Of a stretch of DNA of 36,127 nt, positions 135-25,807 are shown in pieces. This stretch comes from Verrucomicrobiia bacterium (GTDB lineage Bacteria; Verrucomicrobiota; Verrucomicrobiia; Limisphaerales; UBA8199): NCBI GenBank assembly GCA_035946615.1, contig DASYZB010000117.1, positions 1-36,127 on the forward strand, written 5' to 3'. Under the pieces are notes generated by a model. That model saw only the letters and a program-made list of their open reading frames with translations. It was not told where the DNA came from and ran no database searches. Position 1 is the stretch's first letter. Each line of letters starts with the position of its first letter. The position numbers were made by a program, and so were the translations under genes.

Positions 135-974
135 ATGAACATCCCGAAACCCGTCTCAGGCCGCGTGGCGGTATGCAGTTGGTCCCTCCAACCAGCCAGC
201 CCGGAGGAATTGGCCCTCAAATTGCGCGCTGCGGGCGTGCGGCGGGTCCAGCTTGCGTTGGATCCGTTGCGGCAGAAACCGGCTGTTTGGGGCCAAACCC
301 AGCAGGTCTTTGAGCACAATCAGATTTCCATCATCTCCGGCATGTTCGGCTGCGTTGGGGAAGACTACAGCACGCTGGAATCCATCCGCGCCACCGGCGG
401 CCTGGCCCCGGACGCCACCTGGCCCCAGAACTTAAAGAACATCATCGAGACCGTCGCATTGTCCGAAAAACTGGGGTTGAAACTGGTCACCTTCCACGCC
501 GGCTTCCTGCCCCACGACAAAGCCGACCCTGTCTTTGCCAAGATGCTGCGGCGCCTGGGCGAGACGGCTGATGCCTTCGGCGCCGCCGGTATCGACGTGG
601 CTCTCGAGACCGGCCAGGAAACGGCGCGGGATCTGGCGCGACTCCTGCTTGAACTGGACCGCCGGAACGCCGGCATCAATTTCGATCCGGCCAACATGAT
701 CCTCTACGACAAAGGCAACCCCGTAGAGGCCTTCCGCCTCCTGGGGCCCTGGGTGCGCCAGGTCCACATTAAAGACGCGCTCCGGACCAAAACCCCCGGC
801 ACGTGGGGCCAGGAGGTCCCGGCGGGTTCGGGTGAAGTGGATTGGCCAAGGTTCTTCGAGATCCTCAAGGGATTGAATTACAGCGGCCCCTTCGTTATCG
901 AGCGCGAGGCCGGCGGCCAGAGGCTCGCTGACATCGTGCGCGCCCGGGAACTGATCGAAAAGCAACTCCGTTGA
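135..974 (+). CDS. Sugar phosphate isomerase/epimerase (xylose isomerase-like TIM barrel)
   Basis: The 279-aa protein has the layout of the AP endonuclease 2/xylose isomerase-like TIM-barrel family, which isomerises or epimerises sugars and polyols using a divalent metal. Visible strand-end motifs are TFHAGF (119-124), ALETGQE (156-162, probable metal ligand E158), NFDPANM (182-188, D184), QVHIKDA (209-215, H211), GSGEVDW (231-237) and FVIERE (253-258, E256). No signal peptide is seen, so it should be cytoplasmic. It ends one base before the oxidoreductase start, and the two are probably co-translated in a sugar or inositol-type pathway. The substrate cannot be named from sequence. ATG 135 is the natural start; there is no Shine-Dalgarno. 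Confidence 0.88.
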   Translation: MNIPKPVSGRVAVCSWSLQPASPEELALKLRAAGVRRVQLALDPLRQKPAVWGQTQQVFEHNQISIISGMFGCVGEDYSTLESIRATGGLAPDATWPQNLKNIIETVALSEKLGLKLVTFHAGFLPHDKADPVFAKMLRRLGETADAFGAAGIDVALETGQETARDLARLLLELDRRNAGINFDPANMILYDKGNPVEAFRLLGPWVRQVHIKDALRTKTPGTWGQEVPAGSGEVDWPRFFEILKGLNYSGPFVIEREAGGQRLADIVRARELIEKQLR

Positions 975-975
975 A

Positions 976-2025
976 ATGAAATCCGAAGAACCTTCATCAG
1001 AGAAAATAAACGTGGCGGTGGTTGGGCTCGGCTTCATGGGGGTGACGCATCTGCGGGCCTACCTGGACAACCCTGCGGCCAACGTGGTGGCCGTGTGTGA
1101 CGCCGCGCGCCTGCCGGTCAATGGCATCCTGCAAGGGGTGGCCGGGAACGTCAAAAAAACGGCTGACATCAACCTGGGCCCCGAGGTCAAAGTGTTCCGC
1201 CAGCTTGAAGAGGTCCTCGCCGAGCCGGAGGTGGCGCTGGTCGATCTGTGCACGCCCACCCCGCTGCATCCCCAGCAAGCCGTCGCCGCGTTGAGAGCGG
1301 GCAAGAATGTGCTATGCGAGAAGCCCCTGGCCCGCACGTCGGCATTGGCGCGAGACGTTCTGAATGCGCTGGAAACAGCGCCCGGCTTTCTGATGCCGGC
1401 GATGTGCATGCGCTTTTGGCCCGGCTGGAGCTGGCTTAAGGAGGTGGTCGAGCAAAAGACCTACGGCCCCGTGCTAGCCGCCCGGTTTCGCCGGATGTCC
1501 GAGATGCCGGCCTGGAGCAAGCAAGGCACTTACTCTGCCGGCGGCGACCTCGGCGGCGCTCTTTACGACATGCATATCCATGACACCGATTTTGTTCATT
1601 ACCTCTTTGGCCGCCCAGAGGCTGTGTTCTCCACCGGCCAAAGCAAGGACGGCGGGCCGATCAACCATGTCGTCACCCAGTACGTCTATCCGGGCGGGCC
1701 GACGGTCTATGCGGAAGGGACCTGGTTGTTAACCCAAGGCTTTCACATGGCTTACACGCTCCATTGCCAAGGGGCGACGCTGGATTTCGATTTGGCCCGC
1801 GGCCCCCAGGCGATGCAGGTAACCGAACCTGGCCGGCCATCGAGAGTGGTGCTCAACGACGGACCGGATGGTTACGCCGAGGAGATTCGCTACGTCCTGG
1901 AGTGCGCCCAAAAACGCCAGAGGCCAACGGTGGTGACCGCGCGCGACGGGCTTGTGGCGCTGGAAATCTGCGAGGCCGAGGAGAAGTCGGTGCGGTCAGG
2001 GCAGGCGGTGCTGCTGGCAAAATGA
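976..2025 (+). CDS. Gfo/Idh/MocA family NAD(P)-dependent oxidoreductase
   Basis: The 349-aa protein begins with a Rossmann fold carrying GLGFMG (17-22), has the family signature CEKPLA (114-119, catalytic-type K116) and a C-terminal alpha/beta domain with the YDMHIHDTDF stretch near residue 200. That stretch supplies the usual acid and histidine of the active site. Family members oxidise or epimerise sugars and inositols. The start lies one nucleotide after the stop of the upstream TIM-barrel enzyme, and such pairs commonly act in one catabolic route through keto-sugar intermediates. No export signal is visible. The family assignment is secure, the substrate unknown. Confidence 0.9.
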   Translation: MKSEEPSSEKINVAVVGLGFMGVTHLRAYLDNPAANVVAVCDAARLPVNGILQGVAGNVKKTADINLGPEVKVFRQLEEVLAEPEVALVDLCTPTPLHPQQAVAALRAGKNVLCEKPLARTSALARDVLNALETAPGFLMPAMCMRFWPGWSWLKEVVEQKTYGPVLAARFRRMSEMPAWSKQGTYSAGGDLGGALYDMHIHDTDFVHYLFGRPEAVFSTGQSKDGGPINHVVTQYVYPGGPTVYAEGTWLLTQGFHMAYTLHCQGATLDFDLARGPQAMQVTEPGRPSRVVLNDGPDGYAEEIRYVLECAQKRQRPTVVTARDGLVALEICEAEEKSVRSGQAVLLAK

Positions 2026-2120
2026 GGGGCGCCCTCAGGCCGCGCGGAGCGAGACACTAATTTCACGAATTAACACGAATTTTTTTTGAGATCGCAGCGA
2101 GATTGTTTTGTACGCTGAAC

Positions 2121-2150
2121 GGGTGAGATGAAGGCGGGTGAGATGAAGGC
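2121..2150. repeat. Perfect 15-bp tandem duplication
   Basis: GGGTGAGATGAAGGC occurs twice with no spacer (2121-2135 and 2136-2150). It looks like a recent slippage duplication inside the recA upstream region. Confidence 0.85.
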
Positions 2151-2274
2151 ACGGAGGCGCGCAAAGATTATGAGAGGAGAGATATTGAAATTGAAAGGGA
2201 TTTGCTTTTTGGCACGCGAATTGTTTTGGCAGACGGCGGCACAGTAAAACTGCCTGAGCGCGGGGGCAGGAAAG

Positions 2275-2328
2275 GGGCCTCCTCTCCCCGGCCCTCTCCT
2301 CCAATGGAGGAGAGGGGGAAGACTGCCA
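2275..2328. repeat. 54-bp hairpin-bearing direct repeat, copy 2 (upstream of recA)
   Basis: This block matches 3552-3605 at all but the two central loop positions and lies in the same orientation. It contains a perfect 11-bp stem (2292-2302 with 2306-2316) around a 3-nt loop. Similarity fades outside the 54 bp but continues weakly on both sides. No T-tract follows the stem. Confidence 0.85.
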
Positions 2329-2368
2329 CTGGCCCTGCGGTGGCGCTGATTGCAAATTGATGATTGAT

Positions 2369-2396
2369 TTGACAAGCGTGCCGCGTTTCCGAAAAT
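2369..2396 (+). promoter_or_regulatory. Possible recA promoter
   Basis: TTGACA (2369-2374) is followed after 16 bp by GAAAAT (2391-2396, four of six matches to TATAAT). This would start transcription about 35 bp before the recA ATG. I see no clear LexA palindrome beside it. The call rests on pattern only. Confidence 0.35.
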
Positions 2397-2437
2397 GAGC
2401 TGTTGCTTGTAATCAAGAACTTCGAACACCCTGAGCT

Positions 2438-3532
2438 ATGGCTGTAAAAACTTTGGAAAAACCCGCCGAGAAAGCCGCTGATAAGGTCATAGATGGCAAG
2501 GCCGCTGAGGCCGCAAAGGTCTCGGCAGCGCGTCAGCGCGATCTGGATGCCGCCATTTCCAGCATTACCAAGGCCTACGGCGAGGGCAGCATCATGCGCC
2601 TGGGCGACGCCCGGGCGCTCAAACAAATCGAGGTCATCCCCACGGGCGCCCTGGCGGTGGACCTGGCCCTTGGCGTGGGCGGTATCCCGCGCGGGCGGGT
2701 AGTCGAGATTTTCGGCCCGGAATCCTCCGGCAAAACCACCCTGATGCTCCATGTCATTGCCAATGCCCAAAAGGCGGGCGGCCTGGCGGCCTTCATCGAT
2801 GCCGAACACGCCCTGGACCCCGGCTATGCCAAACGCCTTGGGGTCGATCTTGAAGATTTGCTCGTCTCGCAGCCCGACAGCGGCGAGGAGGCCCTGTCCA
2901 TTTGCGAAACCCTGGCGCGCTCCAACGCCCTGGACGTGATTGTAATTGACTCCGTCGCGGCCCTGGTGCCCAAGGCGGAGTTGGAAGGTGAGATGGGCAT
3001 GGCGACGATGGGCATGCAGGCCCGCCTCATGAGCCAGGCCCTCCGTAAATTGACGGCGGTTCTTGCCCGCGCCAAGACCACTTGCGTTTTTACCAACCAA
3101 ATGCGCGAGAAAGTAGGCGTGATGTTTGGCAACCCCGAGACGACCCCCGGGGGAAAGGCGCTCAAGTTCTATGCCAGCGTCCGCATTGATATCCGGCGCA
3201 AGGACACCATCAAAGACGCCGCGGGCAATGCCATTGGCAACCATGTCAAGGTCAAGATCGTCAAAAACAAAGTCGCCCCGCCCTTTGCCGAGGCCGAGTT
3301 TGATATCATTTACAATCATGGAATCAATAAGGAAGGCAGCCTGCTGGATGTCGGCATCGACGTGGGCGCCGTGGATAAGAAGGGGGCGTGGCTCCAGTTT
3401 GATGGCGAGTTGATTGGGCAAGGCAAAGAAGCAGCCCAAAAAACCCTGGCGGAAAAACCCGAGTTAGCGCAAAAGATCGTCGAGGCAATCATGGCCAAAC
3501 GCAACTCCCAAAGCGTGGCCGCTGCCGCCTGA
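2438..3532 (+). CDS. recA: Recombinase RecA
   Basis: RecA catalyses ATP-dependent strand exchange in recombinational repair and triggers LexA-type autocleavage. The 364-aa protein shows Walker A GPESSGKT (93-100), Walker B VIVID (167-171), the L1 region around [14 protein letters not shown], and L2 with [14 protein letters not shown] followed by the TPGGKALKF block (218-244). Its length is typical, with a somewhat long alanine/lysine-rich N-terminus of about 30 residues before the conserved core. The C-terminus is lysine/alanine-rich rather than strongly acidic. It is a single-gene unit between two long intergenic regions. There is no Shine-Dalgarno; ATG 2438 is chosen because it heads the conserved reading frame. 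Confidence 0.98.
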
Positions 3533-3551
3533 GCTGCGGGGGCAAGGTAAA

Positions 3552-3605
3552 GGGCCTCCTCTCCCCGGCCCTCTCCTCCACGGGAGGAGAGGGGGAAGAC
3601 TGCCA
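3552..3605. repeat. 54-bp hairpin-bearing direct repeat, copy 3 (downstream of recA)
   Basis: Near-identical to 2275-2328, differing only at the two central loop bases. The perfect 11-bp stem is 3569-3579 with 3583-3593. It begins 19 bp after the recA stop. It could form a hairpin in the recA transcript, but no U-tract follows. Confidence 0.85.
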
Positions 3606-3649
3606 GTCAGGCCAACTGGCGGCACCGCCGCAAGCGCTTGTACCGAGTT

Positions 3650-3801
3650 TATTGGCAGGAGGGCATCTTGACACTGCCACCGGAACGCCGGCTTCAGCCG
3701 GCAGCAGTGCGTAATTCACCACCCCTGCCGGCTAAAGCCGGCGTTCCGCTGCGGCTACAACAAGTTCCCGGTGGCAGTGTCAAGATGCGCTCTATTGGCA
3801 G
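3650..3801. mobile_element. MITE-like element with terminal inverted repeats and 9-bp target duplication
   Basis: The element runs 3659-3792 (134 bp). Its ends, 3659-3683 and 3768-3792, are inverted repeats of 25 bp with one mismatch (fourth base). They are flanked directly by an exact 9-bp direct repeat, TATTGGCAG (3650-3658 and 3793-3801). Inside sits a second inverted pair, 3682-3704 and 3725-3747 (22 of 23 match), each arm itself a GCCGGC-nnnn-GCCGGC palindrome of REP type. There is no transposase. Size, inverted ends and duplication fit a non-autonomous miniature element, although a REP-type palindrome cluster with chance flanks remains possible. Confidence 0.65.
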
Positions 3802-3912
3802 CCGGCGGTTTCGGAAGAGTTTGACAACTGTGGCAATTGGGGCCATTAGAGTAGCCATCATCCAAGGCGCGGTGGGTTTCTGCTGCTGGTTGTACATTGT
3901 TAAGGACCTTTT

Positions 3913-4911
3913 ATGCGCAATACCGGAAAAGCTACTCTAAAGCCAACGAGTTTAAAACCGCCTCGAAGCGGAGCAACCGCCCTATGCCCTGGATGCCTGG
4001 CCTTGGGCATGGCCGTTGTTGCCATATCGGCCACCGCCGTTTTCGGCTCCGAGGATGTGCCGCACCGGCCATTTGCGCAACTGGCTGATGTGCCCGAGCC
4101 GGGACAATTCATTGGCGGGCTGGTCTATGAGGAGTCGGAGGCCTATCACATTTTCGTTCATGGCGCTTCTCAAGACATCACTTATCATTCCGCTGACGGA
4201 GAGAAGTACGGAATCGACATCAACCAGGGTTTTTTGGCGCTGCAGTACGGGATAACCGAACGGTGGGCAGCCGATGTCAACATCGGGGGCACCACCGTCG
4301 GGTGGCGTTACTTCGATAATGGCAAGGTCCAATCGGCTACCGGGCTTATGGACTTCGATTTCGGCGTCCGCTACCAGGCCTTCAACGAAGCCAAAAGCGA
4401 TTCTCCCTGGGTGCCGACCCTTACCTTGCGCGCAGGGGCCGTCTTGCCGGGCTCTTACAACGAGAATTTTCCGTTTGCACCCGGTTTGCGCTCGGCGGCC
4501 ATCGAGCCGGAGATTTTGGCACGGAAGCATTTTGGCTGGCCGGGCCTGGGGGCATACACGGACCTGCTGTACCGCTGGAACCGCACAACGGCCAACGATC
4601 AGTACATTGCCGTGATAGGTCTGTTTCAGCAGATCAAAGGCTGGGAATTGGATGCCGGCTATCGTCACTTGCAAACCATCTCGGGTTCGGACATCTCGTT
4701 CACCTCGGGTGTGCCAACCAGCCTGGTCTATCCGCGTGACCCGCGCGAGATCAGCGAGTCCATTGAGGCCGGTTTTAGTTACACGACTTCCAAGCGTCAT
4801 ATCCGCTACGGGTTCCAGTCGCTAACGATTTTCGCCGGCAACAACGCCGACCGCGCATTCTGGGTCGGCGGTTCGATAGACGTGCCCTTTGGCGGCAGAC
4901 ACCACGAATAA
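3913..4911 (+). CDS. Putative outer-membrane beta-barrel (transporter/phenol-degradation-like) protein
   Basis: The 332-aa protein has a long basic N-region, a hydrophobic stretch (about 27-44, LALGMAVVAISATAVFG) and then alternating beta-strand segments rich in Tyr, Trp and Gly, such as AADVNIGGTTVGWRYF, FDFGVRYQAF and ELDAGYRHLQ. This is the pattern of outer-membrane barrels annotated as transporter or MetA-like (phenol degradation pathway). It does not end in the usual aromatic residue (ends RHHE), although a barrel-like strand lies just before. It has one of the few clear Shine-Dalgarno sequences here, AAGGA at 3902-3906, six bases before ATG 3913, which supports the start. Ligand unknown. 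Confidence 0.6.
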   Translation: MRNTGKATLKPTSLKPPRSGATALCPGCLALGMAVVAISATAVFGSEDVPHRPFAQLADVPEPGQFIGGLVYEESEAYHIFVHGASQDITYHSADGEKYGIDINQGFLALQYGITERWAADVNIGGTTVGWRYFDNGKVQSATGLMDFDFGVRYQAFNEAKSDSPWVPTLTLRAGAVLPGSYNENFPFAPGLRSAAIEPEILARKHFGWPGLGAYTDLLYRWNRTTANDQYIAVIGLFQQIKGWELDAGYRHLQTISGSDISFTSGVPTSLVYPRDPREISESIEAGFSYTTSKRHIRYGFQSLTIFAGNNADRAFWVGGSIDVPFGGRHHE

Positions 4912-4999
4912 AAGACGGGAGGCCGGCGGTGAAACGCGTGCGGGCCGGGCAGCGGTACATTTTCAAAATGCCCTGGGAGGGGGTGTTTCAGATCACGTC

Positions 5000-5028
5000 T
5001 TGACATTGGAAGAAGTTGTTGGTTTGAT
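5000..5028 (+). promoter_or_regulatory. Possible promoter of the restriction-modification genes
   Basis: A perfect TTGACA (5000-5005) is followed after exactly 17 bp by TTTGAT (5023-5028, four of six matches). Transcription would start about 15 bp before the methyltransferase ATG, giving a very short leader. It lies in the 138-bp gap after the barrel gene and is the best sigma-70-like match I found in the window. Confidence 0.45.
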
Positions 5029-5049
5029 TGACTAAACACGCATTTTGCC

Positions 5050-6036
5050 ATGGGATTGTTCGGACAACAGGAACGAATTGACGACACGCTTAAAGCGGAT
5101 TCCAAGATCGTGCTGGTCTGTGGGGATTCAGCAAAGACACTTCAAGCCATGCCGTCCGGTTTTGCGAAACTTATTATCTCTTCGCCTCCTTACAACATCG
5201 GAAAAGAGTATGAGGTTCAGACCAAGTTGGATGGTTACCTGGAGGGGTTAAAACCGGTGCTGGATCAACTCGCCAGAGTCCTTGCGGACGGGGGTTCGTT
5301 ATGCTGGCAGGTTGGGAATTACGTAGAGCGCAGCGAAGTTTTCCCCCTCGACATCTACTTTTACCCAATTTTTAAAAAGCTTGGATTACGACTCCGCAAT
5401 CGGATCGTGTGGCATTTCGAGCACGGCTTGCACTGCTCTTTAAGGTTCAGTGGCAGGTATGAAACCCTACTGTGGTTCACCAAAGGACAGGATTATACTT
5501 TCAACCTGGATGCTGTCAGGGTGCCGTCGAAATATCCTGGCAAAACACACTATAAACCCGGGCCAAACTACGGGAAATTCTCAGGTAATCCTCTTGGCAA
5601 AAACCCAAGCGATGTTTGGAGATTAATGGCGCACGAGTGGGAAAGCGGCCTTTGGACAATCCCCAACGTAAAAGCCAACCACCCGGAAAAAACAATTCAT
5701 CCATGCCAATTTCCCATTGAGTTGGTGGAGCGCTGCGTCCTGGCCTGCACAAATGAAGGCGATTGGGTTCTGGACCCATTTTCCGGCGTCGGAAGCGCAT
5801 TACTCGCGGCCGTGCGGCACAGCCGGAAAGCTTTCGGGATCGACAAAGACTTGGAATATATCCGCGAAGCCAAGGCCAGGATGGGCAAACTTTTTTCCGG
5901 TGAGCTGCCTTACCGTCAACTCGGCAAGCCAGTTCACCAGCCGACCGGACGTGAGAAAGTCAGCCAGGTTCCAACGGAATGGAAGAAAGAAACCCAAAAC
6001 GCCAATGATTCTTGCGGCCAGCTATTCGTTCAATAA
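5050..6036 (+). CDS. Type II DNA methyltransferase, beta class (probably N4-cytosine)
   Basis: The 328-aa protein carries motif IV SPPY (45-48, within LIISSPPYNIG) before the AdoMet-binding motif I, LDPFSGVGS (241-249). This order defines beta-class amino-methyltransferases, with the target recognition region between. SPPY rather than DPPY favours N4-cytosine methylation, though this rule is not absolute. It would protect host DNA at the site cut by the overlapping endonuclease gene. Its last 32 bases overlap the endonuclease start, so translation is probably coupled. The gene pair is visibly more AT-rich than its neighbours, which suggests horizontal acquisition. ATG 5050 lies shortly after a good promoter-like sequence and has no Shine-Dalgarno. 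Confidence 0.92.
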   Translation: MGLFGQQERIDDTLKADSKIVLVCGDSAKTLQAMPSGFAKLIISSPPYNIGKEYEVQTKLDGYLEGLKPVLDQLARVLADGGSLCWQVGNYVERSEVFPLDIYFYPIFKKLGLRLRNRIVWHFEHGLHCSLRFSGRYETLLWFTKGQDYTFNLDAVRVPSKYPGKTHYKPGPNYGKFSGNPLGKNPSDVWRLMAHEWESGLWTIPNVKANHPEKTIHPCQFPIELVERCVLACTNEGDWVLDPFSGVGSALLAAVRHSRKAFGIDKDLEYIREAKARMGKLFSGELPYRQLGKPVHQPTGREKVSQVPTEWKKETQNANDSCGQLFVQ

Positions 6037-24260: not shown

Positions 24261-25807
24261 AACGGAATTCTACCATTTGCCGTCTGCCATTTGCCGCCTT
24301 TGGTTGCGGTTCCGCCGCGCTGCAATCCCTATTGGGGTTTGGGATTTCTGGATTCGCTGTAGCTGTTCTAGGAGCGTTGCTCCTGACCGGTTGTGCCGTG
24401 GGGCCGAACTTCAAGAAACCGGCTCCTCCCGATGTTAGCACCTACACCGCCAGCCCGCTGTTGCAAACCAGTGGCACAACAAACGTCGCCGGCGGCGAAC
24501 CGCAGCGGTTTGTCAATGGAATCGATATCCCTGGAGAGTGGTGGGAGTTGTTTCACTCGAAACCGCTCAATGATTTAATCGAGCGGTCGCTGACGAACAA
24601 TCCCAGCATCCAGGCTGCCCAGGCGGCTTTGACAGCCGCCCGCGAAGCTGTGCTCGCCCAAAAGGGCGCTTATTATCCCAGCGCCTCAGCAAGCTTCTCG
24701 GCCACCCGCCAGAAAACGGCCCGGGAACTGTCCTCCATACCCAACTCCGGCGCGCTCTATTTCAGTCTTTATACGCCACAGCTCAGCGTGTCTTATGTGC
24801 CGGATGTTTTTGGCCTGAACCGGCGGACGGTCGAGTCGTTGCAGGCGCAAGCTGAACAGGCCCGCTTCGTCCTGGCGGCGACGCACATTACTTTAAGCGC
24901 CAATGTAGCGGCTGCGGCCATTCAAGAAGCTTCGTTACGGGCGCAAATTGCCGCAACGCACCAGCTTCTGGCGATTAACACGAACCTGCTTCAAATCCTG
25001 CGCAACCAGTTTGCAAAGGGGTATGTCAGCCGGTTTGAAGTCGCCGCGCAGGAATCGCAACTGGCGCAGGAGGCCGCCACCCTGCCTCCGCTGCTCAGGC
25101 AACTGGCCCAACAACGCGATCTCCTGGCAGCGCTCTCGGGGAGTTTTCCCAGCCAGGGACCGTCTGAGCAATTCGAGCTTTCGAGTTTGCAACTTCCCAA
25201 GGAATTGCCTTTGAGTCTTCCATCGCAACTCGTGGCCCAGCGACCGGATGTGCGCCAGGCCGAAGAGAACATGCACGCCGCCTGCGCGCAGGTCGGCATT
25301 GCCGCTGCCAACCGCCTCCCGAACATCGCGCTGACAGCCGATGCCGGGAGCATGGCCCTTGAGGCCAGCCAGATATTCGCCAACGGCAGCGGCTTTTGGA
25401 CTTTGGCGGGAGCCGTCACGCAGCCTCTTTTCCAGGGCGGCGCCTTGTTGCACAAACAACGGGCTGCCCGCGCCGCTTTTATCCAGGCTGCCGCCCAATA
25501 CCGCAGCACGGTGGTCACTGCCTTCCAGAATGTAGCCGATACCCTGAATGCGCTGGAACAGGATGCCAATGCCCTCAATACCGCTGCGGCTGCCGAAGAG
25601 GCCGCCGGCACAACACTTAATCTGGCCCGAAGCCAATGGCAAACCGGCTATGCCAATTACCTCGGCCTGCTCAGTGCCCAGCAGGCCTACGAGCAGGCTG
25701 TGATTAATCTCGTGCAGGCCCAGGCCAATCGTTATGCTGATTCCGCAGCGCTCTTCCAAGCCCTCGGAGGGGGCTGGTGGAACCGCGCCGATTTGACAAA
25801 AAACTAA
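24257..25807 (+). CDS. Outer-membrane efflux lipoprotein, TolC/NodT family
   Basis: The 516-aa protein has a lipoprotein signal ending LLTGC (C46) followed by AVGPNFKKP, the hallmark of NodT-type RND channels. Two repeated TolC-like halves follow. The first includes WWELFHSKPLNDLIERSLTNN, typical of these channels. The second includes LPSQLVAQRPDVRQAEENMHAA, the usual conserved block, and the late QWQTGYANYLGLLSAQQ. It should form the trimeric exit duct for the CzcA-like pump. The signal peptide is unusually long, with a Cys- and Gly-rich n-region. Translation is probably coupled to the proline-rich protein through the ATGA overlap. Confidence 0.92.
   Translation: MKRNSTICRLPFAAFGCGSAALQSLLGFGISGFAVAVLGALLLTGCAVGPNFKKPAPPDVSTYTASPLLQTSGTTNVAGGEPQRFVNGIDIPGEWWELFHSKPLNDLIERSLTNNPSIQAAQAALTAAREAVLAQKGAYYPSASASFSATRQKTARELSSIPNSGALYFSLYTPQLSVSYVPDVFGLNRRTVESLQAQAEQARFVLAATHITLSANVAAAAIQEASLRAQIAATHQLLAINTNLLQILRNQFAKGYVSRFEVAAQESQLAQEAATLPPLLRQLAQQRDLLAALSGSFPSQGPSEQFELSSLQLPKELPLSLPSQLVAQRPDVRQAEENMHAACAQVGIAAANRLPNIALTADAGSMALEASQIFANGSGFWTLAGAVTQPLFQGGALLHKQRAARAAFIQAAAQYRSTVVTAFQNVADTLNALEQDANALNTAAAAEEAAGTTLNLARSQWQTGYANYLGLLSAQQAYEQAVINLVQAQANRYADSAALFQALGGGWWNRADLTKN

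Follow-up and report, generated by a model that had tools for sequence, protein, structure and literature searches.

The window, that is, the whole stretch of 36,127 nucleotides that was analysed, contains close to recA a set of hairpins enclosed by longer inverted ends, and the question raised by this locus is whether such a nested structure is a transposable element, a member of a REP system, or a combination of both. The 25-bp inverted ends with one mismatch and the abutting exact 9-bp direct repeat, which the initial annotation had claimed, were confirmed base for base, and the region is organized as follows:

2438..3532, + strand: recA, the upstream neighbour, outside the element (RecA, E 6.3e-130; RecA_C)
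3650..3658: left target-site duplication TATTGGCAG, an exact 9-bp direct repeat with 3793-3801
3659..3683, + strand: left terminal inverted repeat (TIR), an ISKra4-type end, GAGGGCATCTTGACACTGCCACCGG (end motif GRGCGCATCTTGACACTGCCACC)
3682..3704, + strand: REP unit 1, GGAACGCCGGCTTCAGCCGGCAG, with the hairpin GCCGGC-TTCA-GCCGGC, the 5' tag GGAAC and the 3' tail AG
3705..3724: 20-bp spacer separating the inverted REPs, kept in other copies
3725..3747, - strand: REP unit 2, inverted, GGAACGCCGGCTTTAGCCGGCAG
3748..3767: 20-bp one-sided spacer that sets REP unit 2 apart from the right TIR and belongs to the element in other copies
3768..3792, - strand: right TIR, identical to the left one at 24 of 25 positions, the mismatch being base 4
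3793..3801: right target-site duplication TATTGGCAG

The element downstream of recA and its copies

The element lies 126 bp past the recA stop codon. With a length of 134 bp, no coding sequence and 25-bp TIRs differing by one mismatch, it has the make-up of a MITE, and nowhere else in the window do 25-bp inverted repeats with no more than one mismatch lie within 150 bp of each other. The TIRs are abutted on both sides by the direct repeat, which has a length of exactly 9 bp. As single-stranded DNA the element is predicted to fold with -60 kcal/mol, against a mean of -23.8 for shuffled sequences (z -13.3). Between recA and the MITE, at 3553-3596, there is also a free-standing palindrome, CCTCTCCCCGGCCCTCTCCTCC-ACG-GGAGGAGAGGGGG, of the kind that forms the cargo of ISKra4-type shells in the related genomes G098, G080 and G111.

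In the source genome (G000, a verrucomicrobial draft of 5.6 Mb in 161 contigs) five full-length copies were found, which have the boundaries 3659/3792 in common and are each surrounded by a different flank. Four are unbroken, namely that of the window and those at C105:62260-62393, C60 (ending at 25670) and C81:6923-7054, and the fifth is split, one half lying at an end of contig C13 and the other at an end of contig C108. The two flanks match at 9, 8, 8, 9 and 9 of 9 positions (three exact duplications and two of 8/9), the duplications being TATTGGCAG, AGCAGAAGG/AGCAGAGGG, AAAAACCTC/AAAAACCTT, GGTTCACAC and GGTCATGTT, in contrast to 1-4 of 9 in cross-copy flank controls; other duplication lengths gave nothing comparable. 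Constant ends together with 9-bp flank matches at five loci therefore point to repeated insertion with 9-bp duplications. The mobility proposed from the window copy, and the suggestion that other copies with different 9-bp flanks be sought, are both borne out by these loci. The "asymmetric 20-bp insert" described at 3748-3767 does exist as a spacer, but it is not a later insertion into the window copy; it is present in all G000 copies spanning that part and therefore belongs to the element.

The ISKra4-type parent

Two further places in G000 matched the end pattern, C134:13556 and C79:6865. Each is the 5' part of an IS of this type, in which the end is followed by about 190 bp that encode, as read from the sequence, a stretch resembling a transposase N-terminus (LREIEMEVLEEGREWTRRRLE). 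One of these two fragments was used as query against 293 genomes of the order, and the matches were scanned for both ends. The elements of relatives recovered in this way are about 1.3-1.4 kb long and display the end GGGCGCATCTTGACACTGCCCCC, or close variants of it, on both sides. Their ORFs of 398-420 aa match the NCBIfam ISKra4 transposase family NF033572 with E values from 1e-48 to 1.5e-53 and scores of 166-182 bits, which are under the curated cut-off of 205 bits, and the next-best family is weaker by thirty or more orders of magnitude. A transposase gene within matching ends, which the initial annotation had suggested as a further check, is thus found in related genomes. One full-length IS, L136, carries an exact 9-bp duplication, TAGGGCGTC, on both sides, and no clear target duplication was seen in the other full-length ISKra4 copies; the duplication length of 9 bp common to parent and MITE refers, on the side of the parent, to this one clear case. 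In the G000 draft no intact ISKra4 parent with exactly these ends was found. An intact ISKra4 ORF at C160 was considered as parent and rejected on account of its different ends (GGGTGGACGAGATAAAAGT), and the draft thus shows no autonomous copy that matches.

As far as can be judged from sequence, the 134-bp element is an ISKra4-derived non-autonomous MITE, because of its copies and their duplications, the occurrence of the same ends on ISKra4 transposons and the two IS fragments in G000. It resembles ISKra4-family ISs and IS-derived MITEs in having 25-bp TIRs in common with the ISKra4 transposons of relatives, a 9-bp duplication, a non-coding sequence of about 130 bp and several copies. Unlike IS-derived MITEs generally, its interior is a foreign inverted REP doublet and not an IS remnant.

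REP units, shells and cargos

The consensus of the interior unit is GGAACG-CCGnn-TTYA-nnCGG-CAG, and it was searched as GGAACGCCG-nn-TTYA-nn-CGGCAG, a pattern in which S is fixed at the outer variable pair and complementarity is not demanded. It occurs at 124 places in G000 (65 forward and 59 reverse) versus 1 for the reversed control, and at 13-73 places in each of four other genomes of the order versus none for the control. Most REP clusters in G000 are inverted pairs (among the matches listed, which cover 100 of the 124 places). The stems are of the types GGC/GCC, CCT/AGG, GCA/TGC and GGA/TCC, among others, with tag, loop and tail constant; GGA/TCC is dominant in G008, and GGC/GCC and CCT/AGG are dominant in G000. 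Pairing is found in 96.9% of stem cells, with a covariation score of 0.421, and none of 500 shuffles (0/500) reached either value. RAYT genes (NF047646, Y1_Tnp) with the REP on both sides are present in G017 (C27, E 3.6e-24) and in G008 (C813, E 1.8e-20, a match to NF047646 slightly under its cut-off), and in G000 a REP unit at C21 is adjoined by a truncated RAYT of 115 aa that has 74% identity to the G008 protein. Because the stems are compensatory, RAYTs of G017 and G008 are flanked by the unit and the C21 remnant adjoins it, the interior unit is, by its sequence associations, assigned as a true REP of a RAYT system, with the tag GGAACG. The description of a REP-type cruciform nested in a transposon-like shell was therefore literally right, the inner hairpins being the REPs of a RAYT. 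Present-day mobilisation of the REPs in G000 is doubtful, since its RAYT is truncated.

The seven Y1 (IS200/RAYT) genes of G000 were also considered as the source of the REPs, and the only one that is REP-flanked is a fragment close to a GTAAT element; the true RAYT remnant, at C21, came to light only by tracing the REP. At L153 (G000 C49, ~29610) another hairpin family, CCCAACGC-TTYA/TRAA-GCGTTGGG followed by GCTATTCTC, has copies on either side of a Y1 transposase gene, and its loop is that of the GGAACG REPs.

We then surveyed the surroundings of about 60 G000 clusters of REPs, among the 100 of 124 places listed, and nearly all of these clusters sit within terminal-repeat shells, the clearest shell-free exception being the REP doublet adjoining the RAYT remnant at C21. 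The possibility that these are free REPs with no more than a likeness to the interior of the element was rejected, as nearly all the clusters surveyed are inside recognisable shells. The doublet was found in at least three shells unrelated to that of the window, so that G000 holds at least four shell types. The commonest, of about 101 bp, has GTAAT-type ends, GTAATnnnTnAGTGAC, and is bordered by exact 8-bp duplications in 36 of the 41 copies scored, no other length giving any. A shell with ends of the TTTCACAC type occurs at three places, and another, with ends of the type CAGCAATTC..., is found at L190 with the 9-bp repeat TTTTAGCTA and in related form at L184. Moreover, two chimeras, each joined at a REP, were seen: L161 has a GTAAT left end and a TTTCACAC right end, and L023 combines a GTAAT left end with a second REP and a right end of the L184/L190 type. 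Both are devoid of matching flanks, as expected of recombination products. The 8-bp duplication and GTAA ends of the commonest shell resemble those of IS66, which may be its parent, but neither of the two IS66 fragments of G000 has GTAAT...AGTGAC ends around it.

When all the loci collected were scanned for paired ISKra4-type ends, such pairs were found around elements 119-209 bp in length, many of which have flanks that match at 8-9 of 9 positions, and the interiors comprise at least five different palindromic cargos:

GGAACG REPs: G000, G008 and G020
GGAGCGCGGCATTTATGCCGC: G009
GTAGGCCGCGTGCCCTCACGCGGC, a GTAG-tagged hairpin (GTAGGCC tag): G074
GGAGCGCCGGTCTCCGACCCGGCAGG: G097
CCCTCTCCCC-type palindromes: G098, G080 and G111

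In several ISKra4-type elements, that of the window included, the REP lies 0-5 bp from one end and about 17-26 bp from the other, and the one-sided spacers of different genomes are unrelated in sequence. This recurrent one-sided spacing may reflect a subterminal stretch that is needed at one of the ends.

The element shares with the REPINs, or REP doublets, of RAYT systems (Bertels and Rainey 2011, PMC3116915) the inverted hairpin pair, the presence of the same hairpin on the flanks of a RAYT gene and an order-wide family with compensatory stems. It differs from them in its tag, GGAACG and neither GTAG nor CGTC, which are described in PMC3733652 as the tags of two large REP super-families. A further difference is that nearly all the copies surveyed in G000 lie in shells with TIRs and target-site duplications, and that spread is evidenced by DDE-type duplications.

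Proposed capture of REP doublets by transposon shells

Taking together copies, boundaries, duplications, parent IS, REP identity, RAYT association, sharing of cargo and chimeras, all of which are read from sequence, positions 3659-3792 very probably constitute a non-autonomous MITE with ISKra4-family (DDE-type) ends that carries as cargo a REP doublet of a RAYT (Y1/HUH) system. We hypothesize that an ISKra4 transposase supplied in trans would recognise the 25-bp ends and that insertion by this enzyme would create the 9-bp target duplication, the shell now taking the REP doublet along to new sites. The doublets may first have entered the shells through RAYT-mediated insertion or through template switching at hairpins, copying between hairpins during replication or repair being the second route of capture, and different MITE shells would recombine at the REPs they have in common, which serve as blocks of homology. 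RAYT insertion into a hairpin-forming MITE and hairpin-to-hairpin copying appear similarly probable as routes, and the chimeras favour the latter for at least some cases; we infer that shells captured REP doublets repeatedly.

Other explanations must be weighed against this reading. The outer inverted repeat could be no transposon shell, only the palindromic target of a REP dimer in a REPIN or BIME driven by a RAYT alone. This we regard as highly improbable, given that HUH transposition is not known to leave a target duplication, and that the outer repeat is a real IS end, repeated at unrelated loci with 9-bp duplications. The precedent for it comes from Anabaena variabilis and Halothiobacillus neapolitanus, in which, according to section 7 of PMC3733652, REP dimers are regularly embedded in longer palindromes that are not found without the REP; that section calls these palindromes targets and draws no relation to transposon ends. 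The present element is alike in that its REP dimer lies within a longer palindrome, as is regularly so in those two species, and unlike in that duplications and IS parents mark the palindrome as a MITE shell and that one REP type occupies several shells. A much more serious contender, to which we give somewhat less than an even chance, concerns only the manner of capture and leaves the MITE identity unaffected: REP doublets would have entered the shells by recombination or template switching between hairpins, with the RAYT responsible for the original dispersal of the REPs only. The chimeras L161 and L023, which join two shells at REPs, and the stem types largely common within a genome, as in G008 and G000, are in line with it; however, the chimeras are few (two in about 60 REP clusters) and immobile, and a single shell with wholly different cargos across genomes needs repeated capture by some route.

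It is also conceivable, and we consider it unlikely, that the hairpins are kept independently of any RAYT by selection for an RNA-level function, such as a bidirectional terminator or an mRNA stabiliser near recA, or for replication of the MITE. The very stable fold, the position shortly past the recA stop codon and the convergence of different MITEs on hairpin-rich interiors would fit such a role, but no U-tract terminator is apparent, an Rfam search of the window matched no family, specific tags and loop of the REP are conserved and not stability alone, and the GGAACG unit also flanks RAYTs. Chance inverted repeats or an artefact of assembly have a negligible probability, in spite of the fifth copy having its halves at contig ends, where assembly breaks, because five G000 copies show clean duplications, homologous elements exist in several independent genomes and only one such inverted pair occurs in the window. 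A chance palindrome or terminator was likewise rejected on the basis of the copies and duplications and of the Rfam result.

MITEs, ISKra4 elements, REPs, REPINs and RAYTs are already known (PMC3116915, PMC3733652); the novelty lies in the evidence that the palindromes are shells of transposons, in the identification of the parent and in the many-to-many way in which shells and cargos are paired. In the open-licence literature we found no paper on ISKra4-derived MITEs or on REPs inside MITEs beyond the palindrome remark in PMC3733652, and none tying REP-bearing palindromes to transposon ends and duplications. A broader proposal, which we hold to be evenly balanced between right and wrong, returns to the MITE reading and states that in this order REP doublets of RAYT (HUH) systems are cargo of many unrelated DDE-type MITEs, with a spread that no longer depends on the RAYT, and that shared hairpins act as joints for swaps of terminal repeats, new MITE families thus forming by shuffling of shells and cargos. 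The spread of REPs has so far been argued from distribution and from excision reads, which are rare, because transposition by RAYTs is not known to leave a duplication that could be read; REP doublets inside shells that do leave duplications would make individual REP movements traceable, and a second class of transposase is implicated in spreading REPs. We suggest that the "target palindromes" around REP dimers in other bacteria are worth checking for transposon ends and duplications.

Finally, more complex arrangements of these elements were observed. At L046 (G008 C390:17034-17313) ISKra4-type MITEs with GGA/TCC REPs form a head-to-tail tandem array in which ends are shared. At L296, positions 430-5462 (G000 C10:1829-6861) form a 5-kb stretch bounded by the outward GTAAT ends of two MITEs, with an identical 8-base sequence, TCGACAGT, on the outer side of each; its genes, named by eye, encode a TPR protein, a HAD-type phosphatase and two 2-oxoacid:ferredoxin oxidoreductase-like proteins, and it possibly represents a composite transposition of chromosomal genes by the MITE pair.
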